The notes under the pieces were generated by a model. It worked only from the letters and a program-made list of their open reading frames with translations. It made no database searches and was not told where the DNA came from. Below, piece by piece: positions 22,135-36,789 of a stretch of 64,000 nucleotides of DNA. The position numbers and the translations under genes were made by a program. How positions within the stretch are numbered: position 1 is the first letter of the stretch; every line of letters starts with the position of its first letter. This DNA is from Arachidicoccus terrestris (GTDB lineage: Bacteria > Bacteroidota > Bacteroidia > Chitinophagales > Chitinophagaceae): positions 3,348,001 through 3,412,000 of the forward strand of contig NZ_CP083387.1 of NCBI RefSeq assembly GCF_020042345.1. Reading direction: 5' to 3'.

Positions 22135-23940
22135 CTATTTTGTTACCGGCCTGAAAATAATGCCTCTAAGCAATAGGCCCCCTTTTTTAAATATAAGCTT
22201 TACCGGTTTCCCAAGGTTACTGCTCTTATTCAACATAATGGTTACCGGCCGGCTAATTGTAAATGTCCCGTTTGCCGGGGCACTTGTATTGAGCAGAAGA
22301 TCTCCTACTGTTTTGTCAGCTTGCATGATCTCAATATTGAGTGAGTCGGTATCTTGCATCTGCTTATCTTTCGCATAATCCAGCTGCAATTGATATTTAC
22401 CGGATCGTTGGATGTCTAATGTGTAGTTTAGCCATTCACCGTCCTGGATAAAACAGACATAAGGTTTACCGGACGCAGAATCGATTCTTATATCGACACC
22501 GTCGTTACGGTATTGTCGTCCCTTATTGCCATCAGTATGAACGCCCGGGGTATACTGATACCGGGCTGTATCTTTGTCCAGATAGGCATAGCCGTTTGCG
22601 CCTAAATCGTAGTCTGCGGCCAAGACATAACACGGATGGCCATTGAGTGTATATTGTTTAAACCGAACGGACGTGGGGTCCTGCACTCTTCTGAATAGTG
22701 CATCAATGACATCTCTATGGATGATATTATTTTGGATACGAATGTTATTAATAAGAGCTTTTAGCAATTTGCTGCCCTTGCCGGCGGGTGGTTGGGGACC
22801 CTTTCCTGCAGCGTAACGGATAAAAGCATCGTAGTTTGGGGGCATTTTGATTTCCAGCGGGTTATTCAACCCCATTTTTTTCCAGGGCCACCAGCTCCAG
22901 CCGATCTGATTATCTTCCATTAACCGAATACATTGCATATACCAGTTATTGGAATTTTCCCCGGATTCTCCCAGCCACACAGGTGCCTGCAACCGGTTTC
23001 TCAGATCCAGGAAGTACCGGATCGCAGTCTTGTCATTGAAGTTACCATATTTATGAAAACTAAGAACTGTATTGTTATCCCATAAGCTGTCAAGGCCGTG
23101 GTAATTATTGGCAAAACCGTTACCCTCAAGTATGATCATGTGACGCTTGTCATACTGGCGGATGCTTTCTGTAATTCTTTTAAGCAAGGCCCAAAGTGGC
23201 TGATTGTGTTGTTCTTTGGTCCCTCTTATATCTGTACTGTCTTCAAAGCCCCAGTTGGTTTCATTAAGCAGATCATAGCCACCTATATAGGGTTGGTCCT
23301 TGTAGCGCTTTGCCAGTTTTTCCCATAGGGCGACAGTTTTCTCCTGGTTGGCTTGGGACTGCCATAGGGAAGGGCGTGCCGGGTCTCTGTCACTGATAGG
23401 CAAATCATTGCCCTGTCCGCCCGGTGCAGCATGCAGGTCTAATATGAGATAGACATGAGCCTGACTGCACCAGGAAAGAAGGGTATCTACTAACCTGAAA
23501 CCTTCCGGCAGCCAGGTATTCTTCCCGGCAAAAGGTTCTTGCTCAATGGGCAATGTAAAAAGATTGTAATGCATGGGCAGCCGAACGGCATTAAATCCCC
23601 AGGCCGCCATTGAATCAATATCTGCCTGTTGGATAAAGTTTTGCCGCCAGTCTTTATAAAATTGTTCTGTGCCTTCTTCTCCTACCATGTCGCGGATTTT
23701 TTCGCGTATCTTAGTCTGTGTTCCTAAAAAACCAACATGAAACATATAGCCTTCCTGCAGCATGTAACCGCCCAATCCTATACTGCGGATAATAAAGCTG
23801 GAATCTTTGCCGTCTGTGATATGGGTGCCGGAAGTTCTGAGAAACTGTGCGTCGGCTCTCTGGTGAACGCCGATAGCGCCTGCAATGAATAAGCCGATGT
23901 TGAGTAGCCATTTAATCCTGAAGAGAGAAGTGTAAGCCAT
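22135..23940 (-). CDS. GH5 family glycoside hydrolase with C-terminal carbohydrate-binding-like module
   Basis: A secreted 601-residue enzyme, last gene of the glycan locus. Residues 1-32 are a signal peptide. The catalytic TIM barrel (about 35-400) shows Ile-Gly-Leu-Gly-Gly-Tyr near 54, Phe-Asn-Ala-Val-Arg-Leu-Pro at 116-122, the acid/base in Leu-Asn226-Glu227-Thr, and the nucleophile Glu325 in Leu-Gly-Glu-Ser-Gly. Residues about 430-601 form a beta-rich module resembling CBM6-type domains (Asp-Gly-Glu-Trp-Leu-Asn-Tyr). The substrate within GH5 is open (exo-beta-1,3-glucanase or beta-1,6-glucanase types fit the neighbours). It starts 49 bases after the GDPD-GH16 gene. Confidence 0.85.
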   Translation of the reverse strand: MAYTSLFRIKWLLNIGLFIAGAIGVHQRADAQFLRTSGTHITDGKDSSFIIRSIGLGGYMLQEGYMFHVGFLGTQTKIREKIRDMVGEEGTEQFYKDWRQNFIQQADIDSMAAWGFNAVRLPMHYNLFTLPIEQEPFAGKNTWLPEGFRLVDTLLSWCSQAHVYLILDLHAAPGGQGNDLPISDRDPARPSLWQSQANQEKTVALWEKLAKRYKDQPYIGGYDLLNETNWGFEDSTDIRGTKEQHNQPLWALLKRITESIRQYDKRHMIILEGNGFANNYHGLDSLWDNNTVLSFHKYGNFNDKTAIRYFLDLRNRLQAPVWLGESGENSNNWYMQCIRLMEDNQIGWSWWPWKKMGLNNPLEIKMPPNYDAFIRYAAGKGPQPPAGKGSKLLKALINNIRIQNNIIHRDVIDALFRRVQDPTSVRFKQYTLNGHPCYVLAADYDLGANGYAYLDKDTARYQYTPGVHTDGNKGRQYRNDGVDIRIDSASGKPYVCFIQDGEWLNYTLDIQRSGKYQLQLDYAKDKQMQDTDSLNIEIMQADKTVGDLLLNTSAPANGTFTISRPVTIMLNKSSNLGKPVKLIFKKGGLLLRGIIFRPVTK

Positions 23941-23989: not shown

Positions 23990-25549
23990 TTATTGATAGA
24001 CCCTTACATAATCCACCAGCATCTTGGCAGGGAAGACGTTGTTGTCAATGCCTCGTTTACCGCCCCAATCGCCGCCTACGGCGATATTCATGAGCAGGTG
24101 AAAAGGTTGATCATAAGGCCAGCTTTTATAACCAGTATGTTCATTGGCAAAACTAAACTGTTTTTGATCATCCATGTAAAAGGATAGGGAGTCCGGCGAC
24201 CATTCTAATGCATATACATGAAATTGTGTATAAAGTGAATTTGTATAAACTCCCTTGGATTTTTGGGTATGCTTTACGTGATTGTATTTCTCTGTATGTA
24301 CGGTAAAAAATACAGAGTCCGGATTGTAACCGACATTTTCCATGAGATCTATTTCTCCGCTGGATGGCCAGCCTCCATACGTGTTATTATCCGGTAATAA
24401 CCATAGTGCCGGCCAGAGCCCACGGCCAGCCGGTAGCTTAGCGCGCAGTTCAAGACGCCCATATAAAAATCCTTTTTTCTGGACCATGCGGACTGAGCTA
24501 TATCCTTTGGGTTGCTTATCATCCTTTCGGGCAATAATATGTAACAATCCTTTTTCAATGACAACATTGCGGCGGTCTCCGTCTGTATAATTCTCTAATT
24601 CATGATTGCCCCAGCCATGACTGCCGGTATCATAGCGCCAGTAACTGCCATCAGGGGAGCCGGCAACGTTAAATTCATCGTTGAAGACCAGTTTTCTGTT
24701 ACCATAGATTTTCTGATGACGGCGGGCCCTGGCGGCCACAAGCTCCGGTTCATTGGTCGTAATGGCGTCAAAACGGCTGGCCAGTAACCAGTCGATAGTT
24801 GCTGTATCGTTGACGGTCCAGCCATTTAGCAAAATGCCTGTATTCTTTGCTTCCCCGATCCACTCCGGATGCTTTTGAAAGACACTGTAATGGTAATCTG
24901 CACCGTTGATGCCGTCCGCTTTTAGGTCGGTCGGCGATTTCTCTCCATTCAGATATTGCGTCATGGCCTTAGGGTATAGGTGATGGATTTCAAGCAACAC
25001 ATCATAATCAAAACTGATAAAAATGACCTTATCCAAAGCTTTAAATTCTTTCACCATTTGAAGTACTGCACGGGTGGTTTTAATGGCACGGTCTTTACTG
25101 ATCACTGAGGGTTTGATCTCCAGTATCGGGATAGTATGACCGCCGCTTCCGAGTGCTGTCTGCAGGTAACTCCGGAGTGTGGGCAAATGTTCTCCGTTTT
25201 TCAGCGGTACACGCATCAGCTGCTGATACGTACTTTTTTCAATCGTATCCCCGGCATACACCGGATCGTGGTTGATAATAAGTGTGTCATCTGAAGTCAT
25301 CTGAACGTCAAACTCAGATCCCATACAACCCAGCTGAATCGCTTTTTTAAGGGATGCTATTGAATTCTGGGGCAAACCGGCGGTTTTCCAGGCGCCTCTA
25401 TGCGCAATGACGTTGCTATAGCCGGCCGTATCACTGACCGCCGGAGACTGCCCCCTTAGCTGCAGCAAGGGAGCGATCTGGAGCGATCCGGCTGCAAACA
25501 ATGCCAGTGCAGCGAACCGGTGCCGGGGTAGGAGGTTCTTTACATTCAT
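23990..25549 (-). CDS. Fusion of glycerophosphodiester phosphodiesterase (GDPD) and GH16 glucanase
   Basis: A 519-residue exported protein with two enzyme domains. Residues 1-35 are a signal sequence. About 45-270 is a GDPD domain with its catalytic set intact: His50-Arg51-Gly, Glu79-x-Asp81, His94-Asp-Pro, and Glu144 in Leu-Glu-Ile-Lys. About 285-519 is a GH16 jelly-roll (laminarinase type) with the Glu-Ile-Asp-Leu-Met-Glu active site near residues 396-401 and the Trp-Pro-Ala-Leu-Trp-Leu-Leu segment. Both halves look active. GH16 would cut beta-1,3-glucan; GDPD would hydrolyse a glycerophosphodiester. The combination suggests a glucan carrying phosphoglycerol groups, which is inference. Its gene sits between GH30 and GH5 genes with gaps of about 45 bases. 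Confidence 0.88.
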   Translation of the reverse strand: MNVKNLLPRHRFAALALFAAGSLQIAPLLQLRGQSPAVSDTAGYSNVIAHRGAWKTAGLPQNSIASLKKAIQLGCMGSEFDVQMTSDDTLIINHDPVYAGDTIEKSTYQQLMRVPLKNGEHLPTLRSYLQTALGSGGHTIPILEIKPSVISKDRAIKTTRAVLQMVKEFKALDKVIFISFDYDVLLEIHHLYPKAMTQYLNGEKSPTDLKADGINGADYHYSVFQKHPEWIGEAKNTGILLNGWTVNDTATIDWLLASRFDAITTNEPELVAARARRHQKIYGNRKLVFNDEFNVAGSPDGSYWRYDTGSHGWGNHELENYTDGDRRNVVIEKGLLHIIARKDDKQPKGYSSVRMVQKKGFLYGRLELRAKLPAGRGLWPALWLLPDNNTYGGWPSSGEIDLMENVGYNPDSVFFTVHTEKYNHVKHTQKSKGVYTNSLYTQFHVYALEWSPDSLSFYMDDQKQFSFANEHTGYKSWPYDQPFHLLMNIAVGGDWGGKRGIDNNVFPAKMLVDYVRVYQ

Positions 25550-25594: not shown

Positions 25595-27043
25595 TTACCA
25601 AACGTAGGTGGCTGCCGCACCCGCACTGAGAATAACGGGGGCGATTTTATTTTTGTATTTCAGGCAAAAACGGCGATCGTGGTCCGTGGTATTAATAGCT
25701 ATACATACCTTCCTGCCCCCGGGCGTCAGAAAAGCAACGTTCGGTACGCCGGCGATCTTGCCGGAGCTGATTCTGACTGAACCGGCAGGTACAAACCTGG
25801 AAGCATGGGCAATAATATAATAGGAGGGATTTCTGCTGATGACTTTGCCATCAATGGTAAGCGCCCCCAGACATGTGGTACAGCCACCGGGTGTATGCGG
25901 GGCCAGATTTGGATCTGCGGCCAGGTTCCATTCCAGTACATTGCGGCTCCAGTTCCTGGTCGCGCCTACGATCAGATTACTGATATGCCAGCTGAGATCG
26001 CCACCAAAAGACCCGGTAGAGGGTGTATATTGTTCTGTAAAATATAGATTTTTATCTGGGTACCGATCATGTACTTCAGACAGCGCACTGATGTCGCCGT
26101 TATATAAGTGAAAGGCTGCCCCATCCACATAAACAGCGGCGTCCGGGTCACTAAGAATGGTCATTGGATAATCCGGATGATTGGCGTTATGATCATAGAC
26201 CTGTATTTTGGTCGACAGACCTGCGGTTTTGAAGGCTGGTCCAAGGTTGTTTTTGATAAAACCCCGCTGGTCATCGGCAGTCATATACAGGCTGGGATTG
26301 TTATCCGGATTCAGCGGTTCATTTTGTGGTGTAATGGCGTCAATGGTAATACCTTCTTTCTGCATGGCTTGTATGTACCGTACAAAATACTGCGCATAGC
26401 TCTCATAATACTGCGGCAGTAAACTGCCGCCTTTGGAGCTGGCATTGGATTTCATCCAGGATGGGGCGGACCAGGGAGAACCTAGTATCTTAATAGAAGG
26501 ATTGATGCGGAGAATTTCTTTAAGTAACGGAATCAGGTGTATGCTTGCTTTGGCAATGGAAAAATGTTGCAGGTTTTGATCGGTCTGGCCTTCTGGCATG
26601 TCATCGTACGTATAAACACTGTCACTCAGATCGGACGCACCAATGGATACCCGAAGATAGCTAATGCCAATGGCGCTGCCTTTGTGACCAAATAGCTCGC
26701 CGAGTAGCTGCTTTTTGTCCGCGGCAGCCATTTCACTGATTAGTTTGGCACTGCCATCAGTCAGACAGAAACCAAACCCGTCCATCGTTTGATACTGAAT
26801 GGCAGAATCAACGGTAATCTTATCCAGCTGACTATTGTCGGTTGCTTCGAAGGCAACTTTTGGCTGTCTTTCCAGCAACTTTGACCTGTTGGGGGTTGTT
26901 AAATATGGTTGTACCGAGTCCTTAACAATGGGTGATGTTTCAGGCGAGGTCGTTGTTTGGCTATTACTCTTGCCACAGGCTGTCATCAGGCTAAGCACGA
27001 AAAAAGAAGTAGCTGTTGCTCTTAGTATTTTTATTGAGTGCAT
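25595..27043 (-). CDS. GH30 glycoside hydrolase lipoprotein (probable beta-1,6-glucanase)
   Basis: A 482-residue lipoprotein: lipobox Leu-Met-Thr-Ala-Cys23. The GH30 TIM barrel plus beta side domain shows Met-Asp-Gly-Phe-Gly-Phe (about 87-92), the acid/base Asn241-Glu242-Pro243, and the nucleophile Glu337 in Tyr-Phe-Thr-Glu-Gln-Tyr. GH30 members linked to SusC/D loci include the endo-beta-1,6-glucanases of pustulan-type loci, so that activity is favoured over glucosylceramidase. It follows susD after a hairpin, within the same leftward operon. Confidence 0.87.
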   Translation of the reverse strand: MHSIKILRATATSFFVLSLMTACGKSNSQTTTSPETSPIVKDSVQPYLTTPNRSKLLERQPKVAFEATDNSQLDKITVDSAIQYQTMDGFGFCLTDGSAKLISEMAAADKKQLLGELFGHKGSAIGISYLRVSIGASDLSDSVYTYDDMPEGQTDQNLQHFSIAKASIHLIPLLKEILRINPSIKILGSPWSAPSWMKSNASSKGGSLLPQYYESYAQYFVRYIQAMQKEGITIDAITPQNEPLNPDNNPSLYMTADDQRGFIKNNLGPAFKTAGLSTKIQVYDHNANHPDYPMTILSDPDAAVYVDGAAFHLYNGDISALSEVHDRYPDKNLYFTEQYTPSTGSFGGDLSWHISNLIVGATRNWSRNVLEWNLAADPNLAPHTPGGCTTCLGALTIDGKVISRNPSYYIIAHASRFVPAGSVRISSGKIAGVPNVAFLTPGGRKVCIAINTTDHDRRFCLKYKNKIAPVILSAGAAATYVW

Positions 27044-27145: not shown

Positions 27146-28693
27146 CTAATTTACATAAAGTGGGTTTTGTTTCAGGTTTTTATTGAATTCGAATTCTGCA
27201 AAAGGGATAGGCAATATCTCGTTTTTGCCCGCTTCAAAACCCTTAAAGGCCAGTACAGCTGCGGCCCTTCCGGTCCTGACCAGATCAAACCACCTGTGGC
27301 CTTCCGTAGCCAGTTCCATATGCCTTTCATGGTAGATATTCTTCAACGTAACCGGTACAGATGGTAGTCCTACTCTGGCACGTACGGCATCCAGGAGTTT
27401 TTGTGCGCGTGCGGTGCCGGTACCTGCCTGTACTAATGCCTCTGCTTCCATCAGATAGGTGTCGGCCAGCCGGATCTCGATATAATCATTGGGAAAGTTT
27501 AGTTCGGCCACACCTGAAGCCACCTTGTATTTCTGTAAAGGTGCGAATTTCTGGATAAAGTAACCTGTGTTCAAATAGCCTTCAATATAACTGGATCCGG
27601 TTGCCTTTGTGAGAGAGTCAATATTGGCAATAGTATAACGGTAACGCGGATCATAGACGTCTTTAGACGGATGCATGTCTTTTACCAGCGTTTCCTTAAT
27701 GATCGGATTAAAGCTCCAGCCACCTCCAAAATAAGTGGGACCCGTATAGGAGCGGGGCCCTACCATATTGACATAGACATTGCCTTTGCCCGGAAACCAG
27801 TTACCCCAGTCCGTTTTGCCGGTGCCGGTGTAGACCAGTTCAAAAATAGACTCAGAATTGAATTTATGATCCGGGCTGAAAATGTCCGCAAAATTTTTCA
27901 CCAGCTGATAGCCATATACCGGTGTGGCTGCGCCGCCCGGTGTGGGGCCGTTGATCTTGTTGAACTGTTCCGCCGCCTCATCCCATTTCTTTTCGTAGAG
28001 ATAGACTTTGCCCAGTAAGGCGATCGCTGCTCCTTGCGTTACACGGCCTTTCTCGGCTTCGCCCACCGTGGCTGGCAGATTCGGTATCGCTGCCAACAGA
28101 TCTTTTTCTACCTGGGCATATACACTGTCAGCAGAAGTTTGTTTGACGTCCCTGTTTTGGGCAATGGGAATGGGTTCCAGTGACAGGATGATGTTTTTAA
28201 ACAAGCGTACCAGGTCGAAATAATAATGAGCCCTGAGAAACTGCGTCTCTGCCTTGTACCTTTTTAAAGTGGCTTCATCCAGCCCGGCCCCTTCGATTTT
28301 CGTTAATAACACATTGCAACGGTAAATACCTTTGTAATCCATAGACCAGAACTGGCCCTGGGGGCCGACCTGCGGTGTGAGTTTTGAATAATCACTCATG
28401 GCCTGCCAGGTATTCATATCTGAGGCGCCGCCGCCACCTGCCAGGCATTCGTCTGATGCGGCGTTCAACGGTCCTAATGTATTCGCATAAGTGCCATCAA
28501 TCCCTCCACCCGCATCGGTGAGCGGTGCGTAACAGGATACCAGACCGGCAAAGGCCTGATCAGGTGTTTTATAATACGTGTCTTCCTGAAATTCCCCTTT
28601 TGGGTCCAGTTCCAGAAAGGATTTGGAGCAGGCCGTGAAAACACCTACGGTCAGTAGTAGCGCCGCTGCTCGTTTAATTATATGATATTGCAT
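27146..28693 (-). CDS. SusD/RagB family outer-membrane glycan-binding lipoprotein
   Basis: A 515-residue surface lipoprotein that captures oligosaccharide and caps the SusC transporter. Lipobox Val-Phe-Thr-Ala-Cys22, then Leu-Asp-Pro-Lys-Gly and Tyr-Tyr-Lys-Thr-Pro-Asp-Gln-Ala, typical N-terminal SusD sequence. TPR-like helices follow. The C-terminal segment has the family Arg-Leu-Ala-Asp-Thr-Tyr-Leu-Met-Glu-Ala-Glu-Ala and Tyr-His-Glu-Arg-His-Met-Glu-Leu-Ala-Thr-Glu-Gly-His-Arg-Trp-Phe-Asp-Leu motifs. It starts 37 bases after susC, the standard pairing. Confidence 0.95.
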   Translation of the reverse strand: MQYHIIKRAAALLLTVGVFTACSKSFLELDPKGEFQEDTYYKTPDQAFAGLVSCYAPLTDAGGGIDGTYANTLGPLNAASDECLAGGGGASDMNTWQAMSDYSKLTPQVGPQGQFWSMDYKGIYRCNVLLTKIEGAGLDEATLKRYKAETQFLRAHYYFDLVRLFKNIILSLEPIPIAQNRDVKQTSADSVYAQVEKDLLAAIPNLPATVGEAEKGRVTQGAAIALLGKVYLYEKKWDEAAEQFNKINGPTPGGAATPVYGYQLVKNFADIFSPDHKFNSESIFELVYTGTGKTDWGNWFPGKGNVYVNMVGPRSYTGPTYFGGGWSFNPIIKETLVKDMHPSKDVYDPRYRYTIANIDSLTKATGSSYIEGYLNTGYFIQKFAPLQKYKVASGVAELNFPNDYIEIRLADTYLMEAEALVQAGTGTARAQKLLDAVRARVGLPSVPVTLKNIYHERHMELATEGHRWFDLVRTGRAAAVLAFKGFEAGKNEILPIPFAEFEFNKNLKQNPLYVN

Positions 28694-28730: not shown

Positions 28731-31700
28731 TTAAAGTGTGATATTGGCTCCCAGCATCCAGGTTCTGGCCTGCGGATAAACACCTTTGTCGATACTGCCG
28801 GCCACTTCCGGATCCAGTCCGTTATATCCTGTTAGAGTAAACAGGTTATTGGCACTGATATAAAAACGCACCTTTTGTAGGGTAGCTTTCTGGGTGATCT
28901 CTTCAGGCAGCGTATAGCCGACTTGCAAAGTCTTTACCCTGAAATAGGCACCATTCTGCAAATAAAAGTTACTGGGGTTTTTGAAGTTGCCGTTCTTGTC
29001 ATCATTGGTCAGGCGTGGATAGTTGCCATCTGGGTTCGCTTCAGACCATCTGTCCAGCGCTTCGATGCCATAGTTGGCAGAATTGATGTCCATACGCCTG
29101 TAGGCTTTCATAATTTTATTACCCCATACACCCTGACCAAATAGCAGGAAGTCAAAATTGTGATAGCTGGCGCTTACAGAGAAGCCGTAGTTCCACGAGG
29201 GCAGGCTGCTGCCCAGGAACGTGCGGTCACCGTCAGAAATAGTGCCGTCACCATTGAGGTCCGCCCATTTAAAATCGCCCGGCTTGGCATTGGGCTGAAT
29301 CAGCTTTTCTCCCGTCTTGTAATTATTGATCTCATCCTGGGAGCGGAAGATGCCGAGCTCTTTAAAACCATAGAAGGCGTTGACCGGTTGGCCGACCTGT
29401 GTTCTTCTGGGCGGGTAAATCATGTTCTGATAGGAGCCTGAGGTAAAATACTCGGTCGTTCCTAAATAGGTCACTTCATTATGGTTATAGGAGATATTGC
29501 CGCTGGCGTTGATTCTGAAGTCTTTATTTTGATAGGTATAACCCAGGACCAGTTCTGCTCCTTTGTTAACCAGACTGCCTACATTCTGCCAGGGATCTCC
29601 GTTATAACCTGCATAAAACGGTTGTTTAACGGTCTGCAGCATATCGGTTGTTTTCTTATTGTAGACATCTAAAGACAGGTTGAAGTTTTTCAGGAAAACG
29701 GCATCGATACCGATATTGGCCGTGGCAGTCTGTTCCCATTTAAGATCCGGGTTGGCCGGCGCATTGGGACTGTATCCGATGATCAGGCCATCTATTCCAT
29801 AGACATAGTTCCTGCCGCTGCCAATGGTAGCTGCATATTGGAACGGAGCCAAAGAACGTTCATTGCCCAGTACACCGTAGGATGCCCTTAGTTTAAGGAA
29901 GCTGAGATTGGCAGCCTCTTCCATAAAATGCTCTTTGGAGAGTACCCAGCCTACTTCAACGGAAGGGAAATAGCCATATACATTGTTGCTGCCGAACTTC
30001 GAAGAACCATCCCGGCGGATGATACCGGAGAACAGGTATTTTTCATCAAAGTCATACGTCAGGCGGGAGAAAAGAGAAGACAGTGTATAAGGCTGCGCAT
30101 CGCTGCCGGAAGCGACCCTGTCTTTGGTCGGCAGACTGAAGTTCAAAGAGTAATCTTCGTAAGAATTGATCGGAAGACCTGCAAAGCTACCACTCAGATT
30201 CATACCGGATTCTTTTTGTGCCGATGTACCGACCAGGAGCATAAAATGGTGCAGGCCATTGTAATAATCATAAGACGCCGTGTTGTCCCAGTTCCAGGTC
30301 AGGTTCTGGTTAGAGGCCCGGTTGCCTGAAGTAACGGTCGTATTGCTTCTGGTGGAACTCAGGTAGTAAAGTGGCGTAAAGGATTCACTGCCATAAAATG
30401 CCTGTTTGGCGGACAGTGAGCTTTTAAGGATCAATCCTTTGATGGGCCTGATCTCAACAAAACCGTTGGCCAGAATATTGTGTGACCAGTTATAGTTACC
30501 AGCAATGGTCTTTACGTAGGCGGCCGGATTCACGATCTCCTGGGCGACGAGAGACGAAATACCGTAGGGTTGACCCAGTGCGTTTCTGACGATATACGGA
30601 TTGGAATAGACTGCGGGATCTACAGTGCTCATGTCGGAAACGATAACCGGTGTAATCGGATCCAGGTTCATCGCATCGGAGAGCGGGCCACCGAACTCGG
30701 TATTCGCATCAATACCTTCTGTCTTATTGTAACTATAGGAGATATTTTCTCCGATCGTTAACCAAGGCCGTATTTTATAAGTACTGTTTAATGCGAAATT
30801 GAGTCTTTTAAAGCTGGATACATCCGGCATGACCAGGCCTTTTTGCTGCAAGAGACCAAAGGAGGCATAATAAGTACCTTTATCGGATCCGCCACTCACA
30901 CTAAAGTTATGGTTCTGGATGGGCGTATTCTTTTTAAAGATTACGTCCTGCCAGTCTGTGCCCCGACCATACTTAGATGGATTTTCAATCAGCGGGTCAC
31001 CGCCGTCATTGGTAGCGGCTTCATTGACCAGCTCTGCATACTGGCTGGCGTTGGCCAGTTTTACCCTTTTGATCGGGTTCTGGATACCAAAATAGCCATT
31101 ATAACTGAGCCTGGGCGGACCGTTTTTGCCACTTTTGGTCGTGACGATGACTACACCGTTAGAGGCTCTGGCGCCATAGATAGCCGCAGAGGCATCTTTT
31201 AAAACTGTAATACTTTCAATGTCATCCGGATTCAGCGCTTCATAGCCACCGTTATCTACCGTAATGCCATCAATGACGTACAGAGGATCACTGTTGTTAA
31301 TGGAGGTGACTCCACGCACCCGGATGGTGGGAGAGGCGCCCGGCTGACCGGAACTCTGAACGACTGTTACACCCGCGGCGCGTCCTCTGAGGGCATCATC
31401 AAAACGCGTGATCTGTTGGTTTTCCATGTCTTTTGCGGACACGGTTGAAATCGCACCTGTCAACGCTTTTTTCTTCTGGGTGCCGTAACCGATCACGACA
31501 ACATCACTCAAATCACCGGATTGGGGCTGGAGTGTGATGGAGAGGGTTGTCTGATCAGCAATAGTCACCGTCTGGTCCGCATACCCGATAGAAGAAATGA
31601 CCAGAATATCTCCGGCCTTTGCCTGTAGGGTGAATCGTCCGTCGGTATCTGTGACAGTGCCATTGGAGGTGCCCTGTATCTGTACAGAAACGCCTGCCAA

Positions 31701-31865
31701 AGGTTTTCCATCAGGACCCGATACAATGCCGGTTAGTTGTTGCTGTACCGTAATATAAGCAGGGACATAGCCTGCGGCTAGTGTCCTGGATGTGGGTATC
31801 ACCGCCCCTATAAGTGCAAGGGATGCCAGCGATAGCCAGGGTTGCATGTGTTTTCTTTTTTTCAT
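28731..31865 (-). CDS. SusC/RagA family TonB-linked outer-membrane transporter
   Basis: A 1044-residue TonB-dependent transporter. Signal peptide at about 1-30, then a carboxypeptidase-regulatory-like domain (Leu-Thr-Gly-Ile-Val-Ser-Gly-Pro-Asp-Gly-Lys-Pro-Leu-Ala-Gly-Val), a TonB-box-like Asp-Val-Val-Val-Ile-Gly-Tyr-Gly-Thr-Gln, a plug with the Val-Leu-Lys-Asp-Ala-Ser-Ala-Ala-Ile-Tyr-Gly-Ala-Arg-Ala-Ser-Asn-Gly signature, and a barrel ending in an aromatic-containing strand. It imports glycan fragments with SusD. It lies 88 bases after the first GH30 gene and immediately before susD. Confidence 0.95.
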   Translation of the reverse strand: MKKRKHMQPWLSLASLALIGAVIPTSRTLAAGYVPAYITVQQQLTGIVSGPDGKPLAGVSVQIQGTSNGTVTDTDGRFTLQAKAGDILVISSIGYADQTVTIADQTTLSITLQPQSGDLSDVVVIGYGTQKKKALTGAISTVSAKDMENQQITRFDDALRGRAAGVTVVQSSGQPGASPTIRVRGVTSINNSDPLYVIDGITVDNGGYEALNPDDIESITVLKDASAAIYGARASNGVVIVTTKSGKNGPPRLSYNGYFGIQNPIKRVKLANASQYAELVNEAATNDGGDPLIENPSKYGRGTDWQDVIFKKNTPIQNHNFSVSGGSDKGTYYASFGLLQQKGLVMPDVSSFKRLNFALNSTYKIRPWLTIGENISYSYNKTEGIDANTEFGGPLSDAMNLDPITPVIVSDMSTVDPAVYSNPYIVRNALGQPYGISSLVAQEIVNPAAYVKTIAGNYNWSHNILANGFVEIRPIKGLILKSSLSAKQAFYGSESFTPLYYLSSTRSNTTVTSGNRASNQNLTWNWDNTASYDYYNGLHHFMLLVGTSAQKESGMNLSGSFAGLPINSYEDYSLNFSLPTKDRVASGSDAQPYTLSSLFSRLTYDFDEKYLFSGIIRRDGSSKFGSNNVYGYFPSVEVGWVLSKEHFMEEAANLSFLKLRASYGVLGNERSLAPFQYAATIGSGRNYVYGIDGLIIGYSPNAPANPDLKWEQTATANIGIDAVFLKNFNLSLDVYNKKTTDMLQTVKQPFYAGYNGDPWQNVGSLVNKGAELVLGYTYQNKDFRINASGNISYNHNEVTYLGTTEYFTSGSYQNMIYPPRRTQVGQPVNAFYGFKELGIFRSQDEINNYKTGEKLIQPNAKPGDFKWADLNGDGTISDGDRTFLGSSLPSWNYGFSVSASYHNFDFLLFGQGVWGNKIMKAYRRMDINSANYGIEALDRWSEANPDGNYPRLTNDDKNGNFKNPSNFYLQNGAYFRVKTLQVGYTLPEEITQKATLQKVRFYISANNLFTLTGYNGLDPEVAGSIDKGVYPQARTWMLGANITL

Positions 31866-31953: not shown

Positions 31954-33468
31954 TTATAAAATGACGGTATTCAGGCTATGCGCTCTGGCCCTTGCCAAGG
32001 CCCACCGACCGTTTAACCAAAAATGAAATGAAATATCTTTGTCAGTAGTGTTCAATACTACGGAGGCAATGGATCCATCGGGGTTAATGAAAGAAGTGGC
32101 CTGCAGATCGGAGCGGTTGGTCGTGCAGCTGATTCGCCTGGCGCCCTTATGAATGAATTTAGAGAATTGGCCAATATACCAGAAGGCGTTTGTGAAATGC
32201 AGTTGCTTTTCCGGGATATTGGCGATGACGGGTGCAAAACAGAAATTGCCTACATGGTTGGGTCCGCCGGTTTGATCCAGCAGGATATTCCAGTCACAAT
32301 ACGCGGTAATGCCGCCATTCAGGTCATGGAGGATATTTATGGCGTATCTTTCTCCCAGTCCCCAGTCATTGATCTTACTGTAATCAAATTTTTCCTGACA
32401 GCCTTCTGTAAAGAGCAGGTGTACGCTCGGAAAACTCTCTCTTACTTTTTGCACATTGTCAAAAAGCGGTTTTGTGCCGGACCAGGTTTCATACCAATGG
32501 AAGCCCAGCCCCCAGATGTATTTAGCCGCTACGCTGTCACTGAGCAGTACACTGGCTCTTTGGAATAAAAGATCCCGGTTATGGTCCCAGGCAATCAATT
32601 TTAGGTCCGCATAGCCGTTTTGATGTAAGGCAGGGCCAAGGGCATTTTTGATGAAGTCTCTTTCCTCGCTGGCGGTATATATACAGGATTCCCAGATTTG
32701 ATTGGCCATGGGTTCATTCTGGACAGAAATACCCCAGAGGTCAATTCCATACTGATGATAGGCCTGGACGAATCTGATCAGGTAATCAGCCCATAACGCG
32801 TAATATTTTTTAAGTAAATGGCCACCATGCAGGATATTGTGGTTGTCTTTCATCCAGGCGGGCGGTGTCCAGGGGCTGGCAAATAGCTTGAATTTACCGC
32901 CAAGTTTTTTCTGGATCCGTTTGATCAGCGGAATCTTGAACTTTTCATCATGGGCAACGCTGAAGGTGCTAAGCGTGGTGTCATTTTCTGCCACATACAT
33001 GTAGCTGGCGCTGGAAAAATCGCAACTCCCAATGTTGGTGCGGCCGAAGTTATAACCGATACCGTTTTCGGGATCATAATAGACATTGATCAGGCTGTCT
33101 TGCAGGTTTTCCGGAAGCGCCGCCAAGGTTTCTGCCGAAGCGTCCGTCAGGGCTCCGCCAAAGCCGGTTATTTTCTGAAACTGATGGCCGGGATCAATAA
33201 AAACACAGATATCGGTTTCCAGAGGCTGATCTTTAGCAGTCCAGGTGAGCGTATCTGAGGGGCTGATTCTAAGGTTGGTATTTTTAGCTGTCGTATAGAT
33301 GACGGGAGCTGATTGCTGATGATAGGCAATCACTGTTGACAAACGATTTTGACCTGGGTAATTCCGGTCAGTAGTTGTTTTATTATCCGACCGGCAGCTG
33401 GCGGTCAGGATGATGCAGGTTGCTATGATCGCAACCTCCGGGACATAAGATCTAAATTTTTGAGACAT
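31954..33468 (-). CDS. GH30 glycoside hydrolase lipoprotein (glucosidase/glucosylceramidase-like)
   Basis: First gene of the leftward glycan operon. The ATG at 33468 (504 residues) is preferred to a TTG two codons earlier. Lipobox Leu-Thr-Ala-Ser-Cys25. GH30 features: Thr-Gly-Phe-Gly-Gly-Ala-Leu-Thr-Asp-Ala (about 101-110), Ser-Pro-Trp-Thr-Pro-Pro-Ala-Trp-Met-Lys (about 198-207), the acid/base Asn251-Glu252-Pro253, and the nucleophile Glu355 in Phe-Thr-Glu-Gly. It is only distantly similar to the other GH30 and closer to the glucocerebrosidase/beta-glucosidase type, so it may trim short oligosaccharides. The two enzymes probably divide the work. Confidence 0.88.
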   Translation of the reverse strand: MSQKFRSYVPEVAIIATCIILTASCRSDNKTTTDRNYPGQNRLSTVIAYHQQSAPVIYTTAKNTNLRISPSDTLTWTAKDQPLETDICVFIDPGHQFQKITGFGGALTDASAETLAALPENLQDSLINVYYDPENGIGYNFGRTNIGSCDFSSASYMYVAENDTTLSTFSVAHDEKFKIPLIKRIQKKLGGKFKLFASPWTPPAWMKDNHNILHGGHLLKKYYALWADYLIRFVQAYHQYGIDLWGISVQNEPMANQIWESCIYTASEERDFIKNALGPALHQNGYADLKLIAWDHNRDLLFQRASVLLSDSVAAKYIWGLGFHWYETWSGTKPLFDNVQKVRESFPSVHLLFTEGCQEKFDYSKINDWGLGERYAINILHDLNGGITAYCDWNILLDQTGGPNHVGNFCFAPVIANIPEKQLHFTNAFWYIGQFSKFIHKGARRISCTTNRSDLQATSFINPDGSIASVVLNTTDKDISFHFWLNGRWALARARAHSLNTVIL

Positions 33469-33474
33469 AAACAA

Positions 33475-33756: not shown

Positions 33757-36700
33757 GTGAATCCGCAAGCATTATTTCCGGCACCTAAAAGCCAAAATCT
33801 GTTAACGAACAGCAGCCGGCCAGGTTATTTATTCAGGACTTATTTGTTCCTGCTGGCAGTACTCTGCTGTTTTGTCAGGGTGGCCGGCCAGCGTAATACG
33901 GCTGCGACTCATGTACCCTACAGCACCATCGGCTTGCCAGGAGTGGTTCATTTTACTGAGAAAGATTTTGAAGCGGGTGTACAAAACTGGATGATTGCAC
34001 AGGATAGTCTGGGAATACTCTATTTTGCCAATACGGATGGCTTACTTACTTATAATGGGAATGACTGGCACCTGTATCCCTTGCCTAATAAAACACTGGT
34101 ACGGTCGCTGGTTATTGGCTCAGACGGGAAGATCTACACCGGTGGCCAGGATGAGATCGGTTATTATTTTCCATCATCCAACGGGACCTTAACTTATCGC
34201 TCGCTTAAAAAGTATTTGCCGGCGACCGAGCGCAGCTTTGCAGATGTCTGGAACACCGGGATTACCGGCGGCCGGCTTTATTTCAGATGTACCGACCGGA
34301 TTATGGCTATTGACACTGCAGTCGGCAACCGGAGATCTGTTGTGTATCCGGCACCCAGCGAGTGGGTATACATGGCCTGTGTCAGGGAAGGTGTGCTGGC
34401 CCAGGACAGAAAAAAAGGACTCTTGATGTATAAGGGAGGGCACTGGAACGTTCTGACAAAAGCATTTATAAATCAGGTGATAACCTCCATTGTAGAGACA
34501 GAAGGCCATGGCTATCTGATTACGACACTAAAGGGCGGTATTTCAATATTCGAAAACGGCAAAGTCCGCCCTGTACCTCTTCCCGATTATGTCACAGCTG
34601 CACATATTTATACTGCTGCCAGCGTCAGTCGCGATAAGTTTGCTTTAGGTACGACTTCCCGGGGCGTATATATTATCAATGAGGCCGGACAGATATTAAG
34701 GCATTTTGACAGTGAAACCAGACTGCAGAATAATAATGTCCTCAGCCTTTTTGTGGATCGGGAGCAGAATCTTTGGCTGGGACTGGATAAAGGCATTGAC
34801 CTGGTAGACTATAACTCTTTTATCCAGACTATTAGCCCGATTTATAATACACCAGCTGCCTGCTATACCGCACTTGTATATAAAGGACAGCTGGTGATTG
34901 GGACTTCGGACGGCCTTTTTAAAGCACCTTTAAGTGTACCGCTCACTGAAGATATCAGTTTTAGCAGGGGACATTTTTTCAAAGTGGCAGGCAGTTCTGG
35001 TCAGGTATGGGGGTTATACAACACAGGAGACCAATTACTGATGGGGCATAATGAAGGCATTTTCCGGGTAGAGGGAGTCAGTGCTGTACCTATTTATAAG
35101 CATGAAGGTGTATGGCTTTTCCAGCCCCTGCCCGGTAATGGCCAGAGCAGGCGTCAATGGCTAACAGGTAATTATGCGGGAATGGAGTTGCTGAGGGATT
35201 CCTTGGGACAAATCATGGATGGAGGGCGCATTCCGGGTAGCCCTTATGAGTCACTCAGGTTTATGGCCATGGATACCGTGCGTCACGTTATATGGGCTTC
35301 ACATCCTTACAGGGGCGTTTATGGTTTGCAGATGAGTACAGATATGAGACGTGTTTTAGGCATACGCTTATACACACAAAAAGATGGCCTGCCCGGCACC
35401 TTAAATAATTATGTGTATACCCTGAAGGGTAAGATCGTTTTTTGTACTGATAAGGGGCTATACACATATGATCCTCAAAGAGATCGCTTCTTCCCCGAAA
35501 ATAACTATAAAAAAATATTTGGGAAACTCTCTGTTCGACTGGTTTGTGAAGATGCCAAAGGCCGGATCTGGTTTGTAACGCACAAGAAACTCGGTGTATA
35601 TATACCTTCCAGGGGTATCCGTTATTTTCCCGAACTCAACGGTAAGTTGATATCCGGGTTTGAATTTATTTTGCCTATCAATGATAAAAATATTCTTGTC
35701 GGATCCAATGATGGTCTTATTCATATCAATTTTAATAAGTATCAGGGCCGGCATGAACCCGTCCAACTGATACTCACCAGGGTAAATGCAATTGCCGCCA
35801 GGGACTCTTGTCTTTTCAATGGCTATTTTACGCAGCGCAATACCGTTGTCAAAAGCCAGCCTGAACAGACAATTCGACATTTGCCAGCCAGATTCAACTC
35901 ATTCCATTTTGAGTTTACCGCCACTTCCTACCGTCCGCCCAGAGAATTTGAATACAGTTTTCAATTAGAGGGTTTTGATAAAAAATGGAGCGACTGGACG
36001 GCAAAAAAGGAAAAAGACTATACCAACCTGCCTTATGGGAGTTATACTTTTAAAGTCAAAGCCAGGGATCGGTTTGGGACAGCGTCTCAGGTAATGGCGT
36101 ATCAGTTTGTCATTGAGCCCCATTGGTATCAGACCACCCTCGCTTTTCTCCTTTATATCCTCTTATTTTTTGCTGGCTTAATTTATGGCCGGCACCTGTT
36201 ACTTAAAAAATTCGAGGCGCAACGCACCAAGTTCGAAAAAGAACAGCAAAAGCTGCGGTATCTACATCAACTGGAGATCGAACACAGTGAGAGAGAAATT
36301 ATACAGCTCCAGAAAGAAAAGCTAGAGGCAGAAGTGGCTTTTAAAAACCAGGAACTTGCTTCAGCCACGATGCATCTTTTTAAAAGAGGTAAACTGCTTT
36401 CAAAGCTCAAAGAAGAGCTTTCAGGTGCCATTAGAAAATTGCCGGATGATGAAAGTCATGGCGACTTTTCCCGGCTGGTTAAAATGCTCAGTGAGGCGGA
36501 AAAACAGGATGCTGACTGGGAACAGTTTGCGATTCATTTTGATGAAGTACATAATAACTTTCTATCGAATCTGAAAGATGCTTATCCGGAATTGACCCCT
36601 TCAGATCTAAAAATATGCGCTTATATCAAAATGAATTTATCTTCCAAAGAAATGGCGCAACTGCTGAATATTTCTTTAAAAGGGGTAGAGGTGGCCAGAT

Positions 36701-36789
36701 ACCGGCTTAGAAAAAAGCTGCGTATTACGAGTGCACAGGTGAACCTCTATGATTTTTTGAGTAGTGTGCGAAGGCAGGCGGGCAGCTAA
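33757..36789 (+). CDS. Membrane-spanning sensor-regulator: propeller repeats, Y_Y_Y domain, HTH
   Basis: A 1010-residue protein with GTG start at 33757; no ATG precedes the N-terminal hydrophobic segment (about 28-44). Residues about 60-720 are two-component-regulator propeller repeats. About 728-775 is a Y_Y_Y (triple tyrosine) domain, about 793-812 a membrane helix, and about 815-900 a coiled coil. About 947-992 is a LuxR-type helix-turn-helix (Ser-Ser-Lys-Glu-Met-Ala-Gln-Leu-Leu-Asn-Ile-Ser). There is no histidine kinase or receiver domain. It should sense glycan fragments in the periplasm and bind DNA directly. It is divergent from the glycan operon and likely controls it, in the manner of SusR-like regulators. 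Confidence 0.85.
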   Translation: MNPQALFPAPKSQNLLTNSSRPGYLFRTYLFLLAVLCCFVRVAGQRNTAATHVPYSTIGLPGVVHFTEKDFEAGVQNWMIAQDSLGILYFANTDGLLTYNGNDWHLYPLPNKTLVRSLVIGSDGKIYTGGQDEIGYYFPSSNGTLTYRSLKKYLPATERSFADVWNTGITGGRLYFRCTDRIMAIDTAVGNRRSVVYPAPSEWVYMACVREGVLAQDRKKGLLMYKGGHWNVLTKAFINQVITSIVETEGHGYLITTLKGGISIFENGKVRPVPLPDYVTAAHIYTAASVSRDKFALGTTSRGVYIINEAGQILRHFDSETRLQNNNVLSLFVDREQNLWLGLDKGIDLVDYNSFIQTISPIYNTPAACYTALVYKGQLVIGTSDGLFKAPLSVPLTEDISFSRGHFFKVAGSSGQVWGLYNTGDQLLMGHNEGIFRVEGVSAVPIYKHEGVWLFQPLPGNGQSRRQWLTGNYAGMELLRDSLGQIMDGGRIPGSPYESLRFMAMDTVRHVIWASHPYRGVYGLQMSTDMRRVLGIRLYTQKDGLPGTLNNYVYTLKGKIVFCTDKGLYTYDPQRDRFFPENNYKKIFGKLSVRLVCEDAKGRIWFVTHKKLGVYIPSRGIRYFPELNGKLISGFEFILPINDKNILVGSNDGLIHINFNKYQGRHEPVQLILTRVNAIAARDSCLFNGYFTQRNTVVKSQPEQTIRHLPARFNSFHFEFTATSYRPPREFEYSFQLEGFDKKWSDWTAKKEKDYTNLPYGSYTFKVKARDRFGTASQVMAYQFVIEPHWYQTTLAFLLYILLFFAGLIYGRHLLLKKFEAQRTKFEKEQQKLRYLHQLEIEHSEREIIQLQKEKLEAEVAFKNQELASATMHLFKRGKLLSKLKEELSGAIRKLPDDESHGDFSRLVKMLSEAEKQDADWEQFAIHFDEVHNNFLSNLKDAYPELTPSDLKICAYIKMNLSSKEMAQLLNISLKGVEVARYRLRKKLRITSAQVNLYDFLSSVRRQAGS

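Follow-up and report, generated by a model that had tools for sequence, protein, structure and literature searches.

A two-domain GDPD-GH16 protein beside SusC/D genes of Arachidicoccus terrestris and its possible role in the use of glycerophosphate-bearing beta-glucans

The window, which is the whole 64,000-nucleotide stretch of Arachidicoccus terrestris DNA analyzed here, was found to carry a run of six minus-strand genes in the order GH30, SusC, SusD, GH30, GDPD-GH16 fusion and GH5, separated by gaps of 37 to 102 nt, with a Reg_prop/Y_Y_Y regulator gene divergent from the run. This agrees with the original prediction, which had placed the fusion between GH30 and GH5 genes together with SusC/D. 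The features are as follows.

22135..23940, minus strand: GH5 protein with a weak CBM6-like C-terminal part (CBM_6 below cut-off; PDB relatives remote only)
23990..25549, minus strand: GDPD-GH16 fusion protein of 519 aa (complete ORF, ATG start; signal-peptide-like N-terminus judged by eye)
24743..25402, minus strand: GDPD domain of the fusion, residues 50-269 (Pfam PF03009; H50, R51, E79, D81, H94, E144, K146)
23993..24694, minus strand: GH16 laminarinase-like domain of the fusion, residues about 286-519 (Pfam PF00722 and PDB 3iln match; E399, D401, E404)
25595..27043, minus strand: GH30 protein close to endo-1,6-beta-glucanase BT3312 (NCBIfam NF053856; best PDB 5ngk)
27146..28693, minus strand: SusD-like protein (profile match)
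28731..31865, minus strand: SusC-like TonB-dependent transporter (profile match)
31954..33474, minus strand: second GH30 protein (closest PDB relative, human glucosylceramidase)
33757..36789, plus strand: regulator with Reg_prop, Y_Y_Y and a sub-cut-off GerE match (profile match)

The claim of a single exported chain joining the two domains was borne out by the intact reading frame and by Pfam scores above the curated cut-offs for PF03009 (residues 50-269, E 8.3e-24, 85.5 bits against 23.6) and for PF00722 (residues 332-500, E 2.6e-23, 82.8 bits against 22), the latter domain extending to residues 286-519 when delimited by its match to 3iln. The GDPD residues were found at the positions predicted, namely H50 and H94, which we take to be the catalytic His pair, and E79, D81 and E144, presumably the metal ligands; the ExDxxE motif of the GH16 domain is likewise intact (E399, D401, E404). 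The predicted structure of the fusion is of moderate confidence (mean pLDDT 78, pTM 0.73). By its domains and intact active sites the protein is a two-enzyme chain with both activities predicted, and kinship to a homologue whose structure is titled with laminaritriose (PDB 7WWC) suggests that the GH16 domain would cleave beta-1,3-glucan.

The GH30 protein encoded at 25595..27043 scored 407.7 bits against NF053856, the BT3312 equivalog, which has a cut-off of 700, and is, as judged from its sequence, a relative of BT3312 and not a filed member of that family. Genes for EEP phosphatases and for glycerol catabolism (glp) are absent from the fusion locus of the window, and no GH144, the beta-1,2 backbone enzyme that would mark degradation of osmoregulated periplasmic glucans (OPGs), was found at the locus among the families scanned; the GH144 genes of this genome sit elsewhere, away from the fusion locus. 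The genome consists of one contig of 4.9 Mb; the closest named species to it are Arachidicoccus ginsenosidivorans (75%) and A. rhizosphaerae (69%). Elsewhere on this contig, a beta-1,2-glucan locus (L156, G000:C1:4427000-4446900) has the order regulator, SusC, SusD, GH144 and GH3 and is without a GDPD gene. Another GDPD gene (G000:C1:207220) adjoins a gene for phosphocholine-specific phospholipase C (C1:208226), one of four such genes over the cut-off in this genome, with GlpK about 11 kb away; the cluster (C1:207220-220653) is likely devoted to lipid head-group scavenging. A PF10091 match (G000:C1:4001478-4002110) within a 2974-residue open frame is perhaps a cyclic-glucan-synthase-like protein.

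Full-length fusions were detected in at least 6 of 244 genomes of the window's family, at least 9 of 395 genomes of the phylum (one as two pieces in one frame) and at least 13 of 397 genomes of the family of genome G342; these genome sets overlap, and up to six candidates per genome were scored in the window's family and up to three in the other two. With four species of a named collection added (A. rhizosphaerae being identical to G116), 26 distinct fusions from five family codes were compared: nine from the window's family, 13 from f5, two from f3 and one each from f2 and f10. GDPD residues H50, R51, E79, D81, H94, E144 and K146 and GH16 residues E399, D401 and E404 are kept in all 26, and among 92 distinct GDPD domains, nine belonging to fusions, none departs from these seven GDPD residues. 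Three further genomes (G418, G760 and G835) encode GDPD and GH16 as separate adjoining genes on one strand, with gaps of 83, 151 and 12 nt, respectively; both active sites are kept in all three pairs, and those of G418 and G760 come after a regulator, SusC and SusD. The architecture is thus recurrent, and neither an isolated occurrence nor a loss of GDPD catalytic residues in all homologues, either of which would have undone the original prediction, was encountered. An accidental join or frameshift is ruled out by the 26 fusions with both active sites kept.

The suggestion that the architecture was possibly undescribed did not survive comparison with the PDB. When the window chain was matched to entries 7WW4 and 7WWC, both domains aligned end to end with the same packing (whole-chain TM 0.94 on the target), and novelty of the architecture is ruled out by these full-length homologues.

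A single origin of the fusion without later change was also rejected, as forcing all fusions into one clade failed for GDPD (AU p 0.004) as well as for GH16 (p 0.0003), in trees that each took in 16 fusions, with the ten found later left out. This rejection fits repeated fusion as well as fission, and the test cannot tell the two apart. The inter-domain spacing is 21-22 residues in 12 of 16 fusions, the pattern being unreadable in the other four, and this near-constant spacing speaks for few fusion events.

The gene neighbors of the 26 fusions were called mostly by phmmer with few query proteins, a procedure by which enzymes of other families may be missed. SusC/D genes lie within the same-strand run of the fusion at 16 of the 26 loci; the other ten are not counted as having SusC/D. 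One locus (L147) has an extra same-strand SusC/D pair located after two genes that, by eye, are a putative sigma/anti-sigma pair, and at another (L114) no partner gene was recognized around the fusion. GH30 genes were found near only five of the 26. Thus, of the conserved association with GH30 and SusC/D that had been anticipated, the SusC/D part stood and a general link to GH30 was not supported. Within the genus, A. ginsenosidivorans and A. rhizosphaerae (L033 and L034) have no SusC/D between their two GH30 genes, unlike the window.

Directly after the fusion, a gene of the EEP phosphatase family (PF03372) is present at 14 of the 26 loci, including all 13 in f5, at spacings from a 4-nt overlap to 12 nt. 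The genomes of four EEP-linked fusions carry just 4 to 13 EEP genes each, so that chance adjacency to the fusion is unlikely. PDB relatives of the EEP proteins include 4c1r, a 'mannosyl-6-phosphatase'. Other neighbors are a beta-lactamase-fold gene ahead of the fusion in Niabella and L113, and an esterase gene after the fusion in the two Niabella. A lipoprotein-like sulfatase with a C-x-P-S-R motif is encoded at seven of the 13 f5 loci (L160, L192, L194, L195, L196, L198 and L199), either upstream of the glp genes or on the downstream side of EEP, a hint that the substrate is sulfated.

Glycerol genes in the order DeoR-GlpD-GlpK-GlpF were found directly upstream of the locus for six of the 13 f5 fusions (G342, G346, G820, G751, G924 and G854), the six cases sharing this one gene order. 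GlpK is over the curated cut-off in all six (754 bits against 590 in G342). GlpD of G342 and G346 scored 302.9 and 297.2, respectively, against an NCBIfam cut-off of 360, so that the protein is called GlpD here by its resemblance to the family. The channel scores over the MIP subfamily cut-off, with a lactic-acid transporter among its best-scoring names, and we infer glycerol to be its cargo; its gene lies 77-197 nt from the regulator gene (from SusC in the case of G924). Genome G342 has no other GlpK over the cut-off and no MIP match other than this channel. The split pair of G835 has the order GlpK-GlpF-GDPD-GH16, with 12 nt from GlpF to GDPD. Ten other fusion genomes among those examined have a GlpK over the cut-off, in each case far from the fusion; no GlpK over the cut-off was found in fusion genome G529, and in G668 the contig, at 7.9 kb, is too short to judge where GlpK lies relative to the fusion.

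Stand-alone GDPDs of the subfamily of the fusion were compared with other GDPD genes of the same 24 genomes, which comprised nine from the phylum set and 15 of the 20 family-locus genomes (G210, G103, G215, G028 and G167 left out). A GH144 gene was found within 10 kb of 13 of the 24 subfamily GDPDs and of 0 of the 33 others (Fisher p 1e-6), where the 13 cases fall in five genera, eight of them in one, and are not 13 independent events. GH144 lies nearby at 41 of 65 subfamily GDPD loci of the named collection, nearly all from Flavobacterium, and is close to the endo-beta-1,2-glucanase 5gzh. The Flavobacterium loci (L039-L087) share one order, SusC, SusD, GH144, esterase, GH3, GDPD and GH43 (the esterase unrecognized in L043), and look like loci for the utilization of decorated beta-1,2-glucan. 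Five of 20 family loci also have GH144 within 10 kb of a stand-alone GDPD, in gene orders differing from Flavobacterium. The remaining family members of the GDPD subfamily have unrelated genes around them, which means that a tie to glucans is not universal in the subfamily.

Passages of PMC3818809 and PMC11842490 describe the OPGs of Escherichia coli as having a beta-1,2 backbone with phosphoglycerol, phosphoethanolamine and succinyl groups. The removal of such groups would suit a GDPD and an esterase encoded next to GH144. The literature passages on these glucans yielded no enzyme that removes phosphoglycerol from bacterial periplasmic glucans, for which the GH144-linked stand-alone GDPDs are a candidate route. 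The OPG link is better for these proteins than for the fusion, for which an OPG substrate is less fitting since the E. coli backbone is beta-1,2 and the GH16 domain of the fusion resembles beta-1,3-glucanases.

The usual chemistry of GDPD enzymes releases glycerol 3-phosphate. We favor, by a slight preference, a reading of the sequence evidence in which both domains of the chain act on one glycerophosphate-bearing beta-glucan, the GDPD domain freeing glycerol phosphate and the GH16 domain cutting the glucan, both activities being predicted. The GDPD domain would hydrolyze a phosphodiester by which the glucan carries a small alcohol (glycerol phosphate is the likeliest), and the GH16 domain would cleave the glucan at its beta-1,3 linkages; SusC/D would import the resulting pieces, and degradation of the backbone would be completed by GH30 and GH5. 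In the relatives, the adjacent EEP phosphatase may dephosphorylate the glycerol 3-phosphate (or a sugar phosphate) so released, yielding glycerol and phosphate, and the glycerol may be used by GlpF, GlpK and GlpD. We infer the activities, the substrate and the order of steps of this pathway from these arrangements. By homology, the window protein would act as its relatives do; its own locus is without EEP and glp genes, and it may cut another diester.

Points in favor of a substrate shared by the two domains are the retention of both active sites (26/26) and the association with SusC/D (16/26), EEP (14/26), glp genes (6/13 in f5) and, for the stand-alone relatives, GH144 (13/24). Against it are the absence of EEP and glp genes from the window locus, the two congeners without SusC/D, the GH144 locus L156 of the same genome without a GDPD gene, the sulfatase genes of the f5 loci (7/13), which it does not explain, and the fit of glp genes to lipid glycerophosphodiesters as well. 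The dual enzyme of the original prediction, stripping phosphoglycerol and cutting the glucan, is thus partly supported by the active sites and by the SusC/D, EEP and glp neighbors (the last at six fusions), with the novelty of the architecture and the GH30 link set aside.

The main rival is scavenging of phosphate or glycerol, in which the GDPD domain would act on membrane-lipid glycerophosphodiesters of cells (fungi, algae or bacteria) opened by the GH16 domain, the common target being a cell and not a molecule. Consistent with this, a gene for phosphocholine-specific phospholipase C is next after the fusion at two loci (L148 and L149), the glp genes suit any glycerophosphodiester, EEP proteins can also be nucleases, another GDPD adjoins GlpK in G091, and the window's genome has a further GDPD beside a phospholipase C gene and about 11 kb from GlpK, as described above. 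By contrast, the two phospholipase C neighbors are from one genus code and are the only such cases among the 26 fusions, and stand-alone relatives of the subfamily accompany GH144. Moreover, SusC/D would be needless for small lipid head groups, yet the fusion is the sole glycan-cutting enzyme recognized in the SusC/D gene run of L116, L151 and L152. We consider scavenging unlikely, although it deserves weight.

Fungal beta-1,6-glucan carries a GPI remnant. A substituent of phosphocholine or phosphoethanolamine, as on this remnant or on the cyclic beta-1,3;1,6-glucan of Bradyrhizobium, is in our estimate improbable. The resemblance of the window GH30 to endo-1,6-beta-glucanase would fit beta-1,3/1,6 linkages, PMC12423599 cites a reference whose title names a macrocyclic beta-(1,3);(1,6) glucan of B. 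japonicum substituted with phosphocholine, and the same two phospholipase C genes adjoin fusions; such a substituent leaves unexplained the glycerol catabolism genes at six fusions and one split pair. These glp genes give more confidence in glycerophosphate over phosphocholine, as well as in a shared substrate. It is very improbable that the GDPD domain is catalytically idle, serving as a binding or stabilizing module of a laminarinase. The deposited homologue 7WW4/7WWC is named as a glucanase only, and the whole-chain match points to one packing of GDPD on GH16; against idleness, none of the 26 fusions has lost a catalytic or metal-ligand residue, the stand-alone GDPD domains have the same residues, and EEP and glp genes are neighbors.

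Extended beyond single proteins, the reading of a shared glycerophosphate-bearing glucan would make these loci a widespread and unrecognized type, in which SusC/D, a stripping-and-cutting GDPD-GH16 enzyme, an EEP phosphatase and GlpF/GlpK/GlpD would gain carbon from backbone and substituent as well as phosphate; this we propose tentatively, as a possibility somewhat short of probable. If true, it implies a natural phosphoglycerol-bearing beta-1,3-glucan, to our knowledge undescribed, that is common enough to serve as food and for which the fusion enzyme would provide a means of detection. The substituent would then be part of the meal, in contrast to the usual view of glucan loci as machinery for sugars alone.

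Among known systems, the closest is the 'multidomain beta-1,3(4)-glucanase' of 7WW4 and 7WWC (released 2023; 7WWC with laminaritriose), a different protein and full-length homologue of the fusion. No paper was found for 7WW4, nor were its gene context, source and GDPD activity found in the literature searched; the open-licence literature likewise yielded no paper on the GDPD-GH16 architecture or on a GDPD in a glucan locus. The stand-alone GDPD 3no3 of Parabacteroides distasonis and enzymes of the GlpQ/UgpQ kind have fold and catalytic residues in common with the GDPD domain of the fusion, which differs from them in being exported and joined to GH16 and falls outside the curated UgpQ/GlpQ families by cut-off (55.6 bits against 264 for NCBIfam PRK09454, glycerophosphodiester phosphodiesterase). 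The GH16 laminarinase 3iln of Rhodothermus marinus shares about 46% identity over the whole domain and the active-site motif, and is without a GDPD domain. In beta-1,2-glucan loci with GH144 and GH3, GDPDs of the subfamily stand alone beside SusC/D (as in L043), and these loci differ from those of the fusion in their beta-1,2 backbone and in having no GH16 fusion. Bacteroides thetaiotaomicron has a 1,6-beta-glucan locus containing BT3312. A GH30 relative and SusC/D are common to that locus and the window locus, to which the latter adds the GDPD-GH16 fusion, a second GH30 and a GH5.
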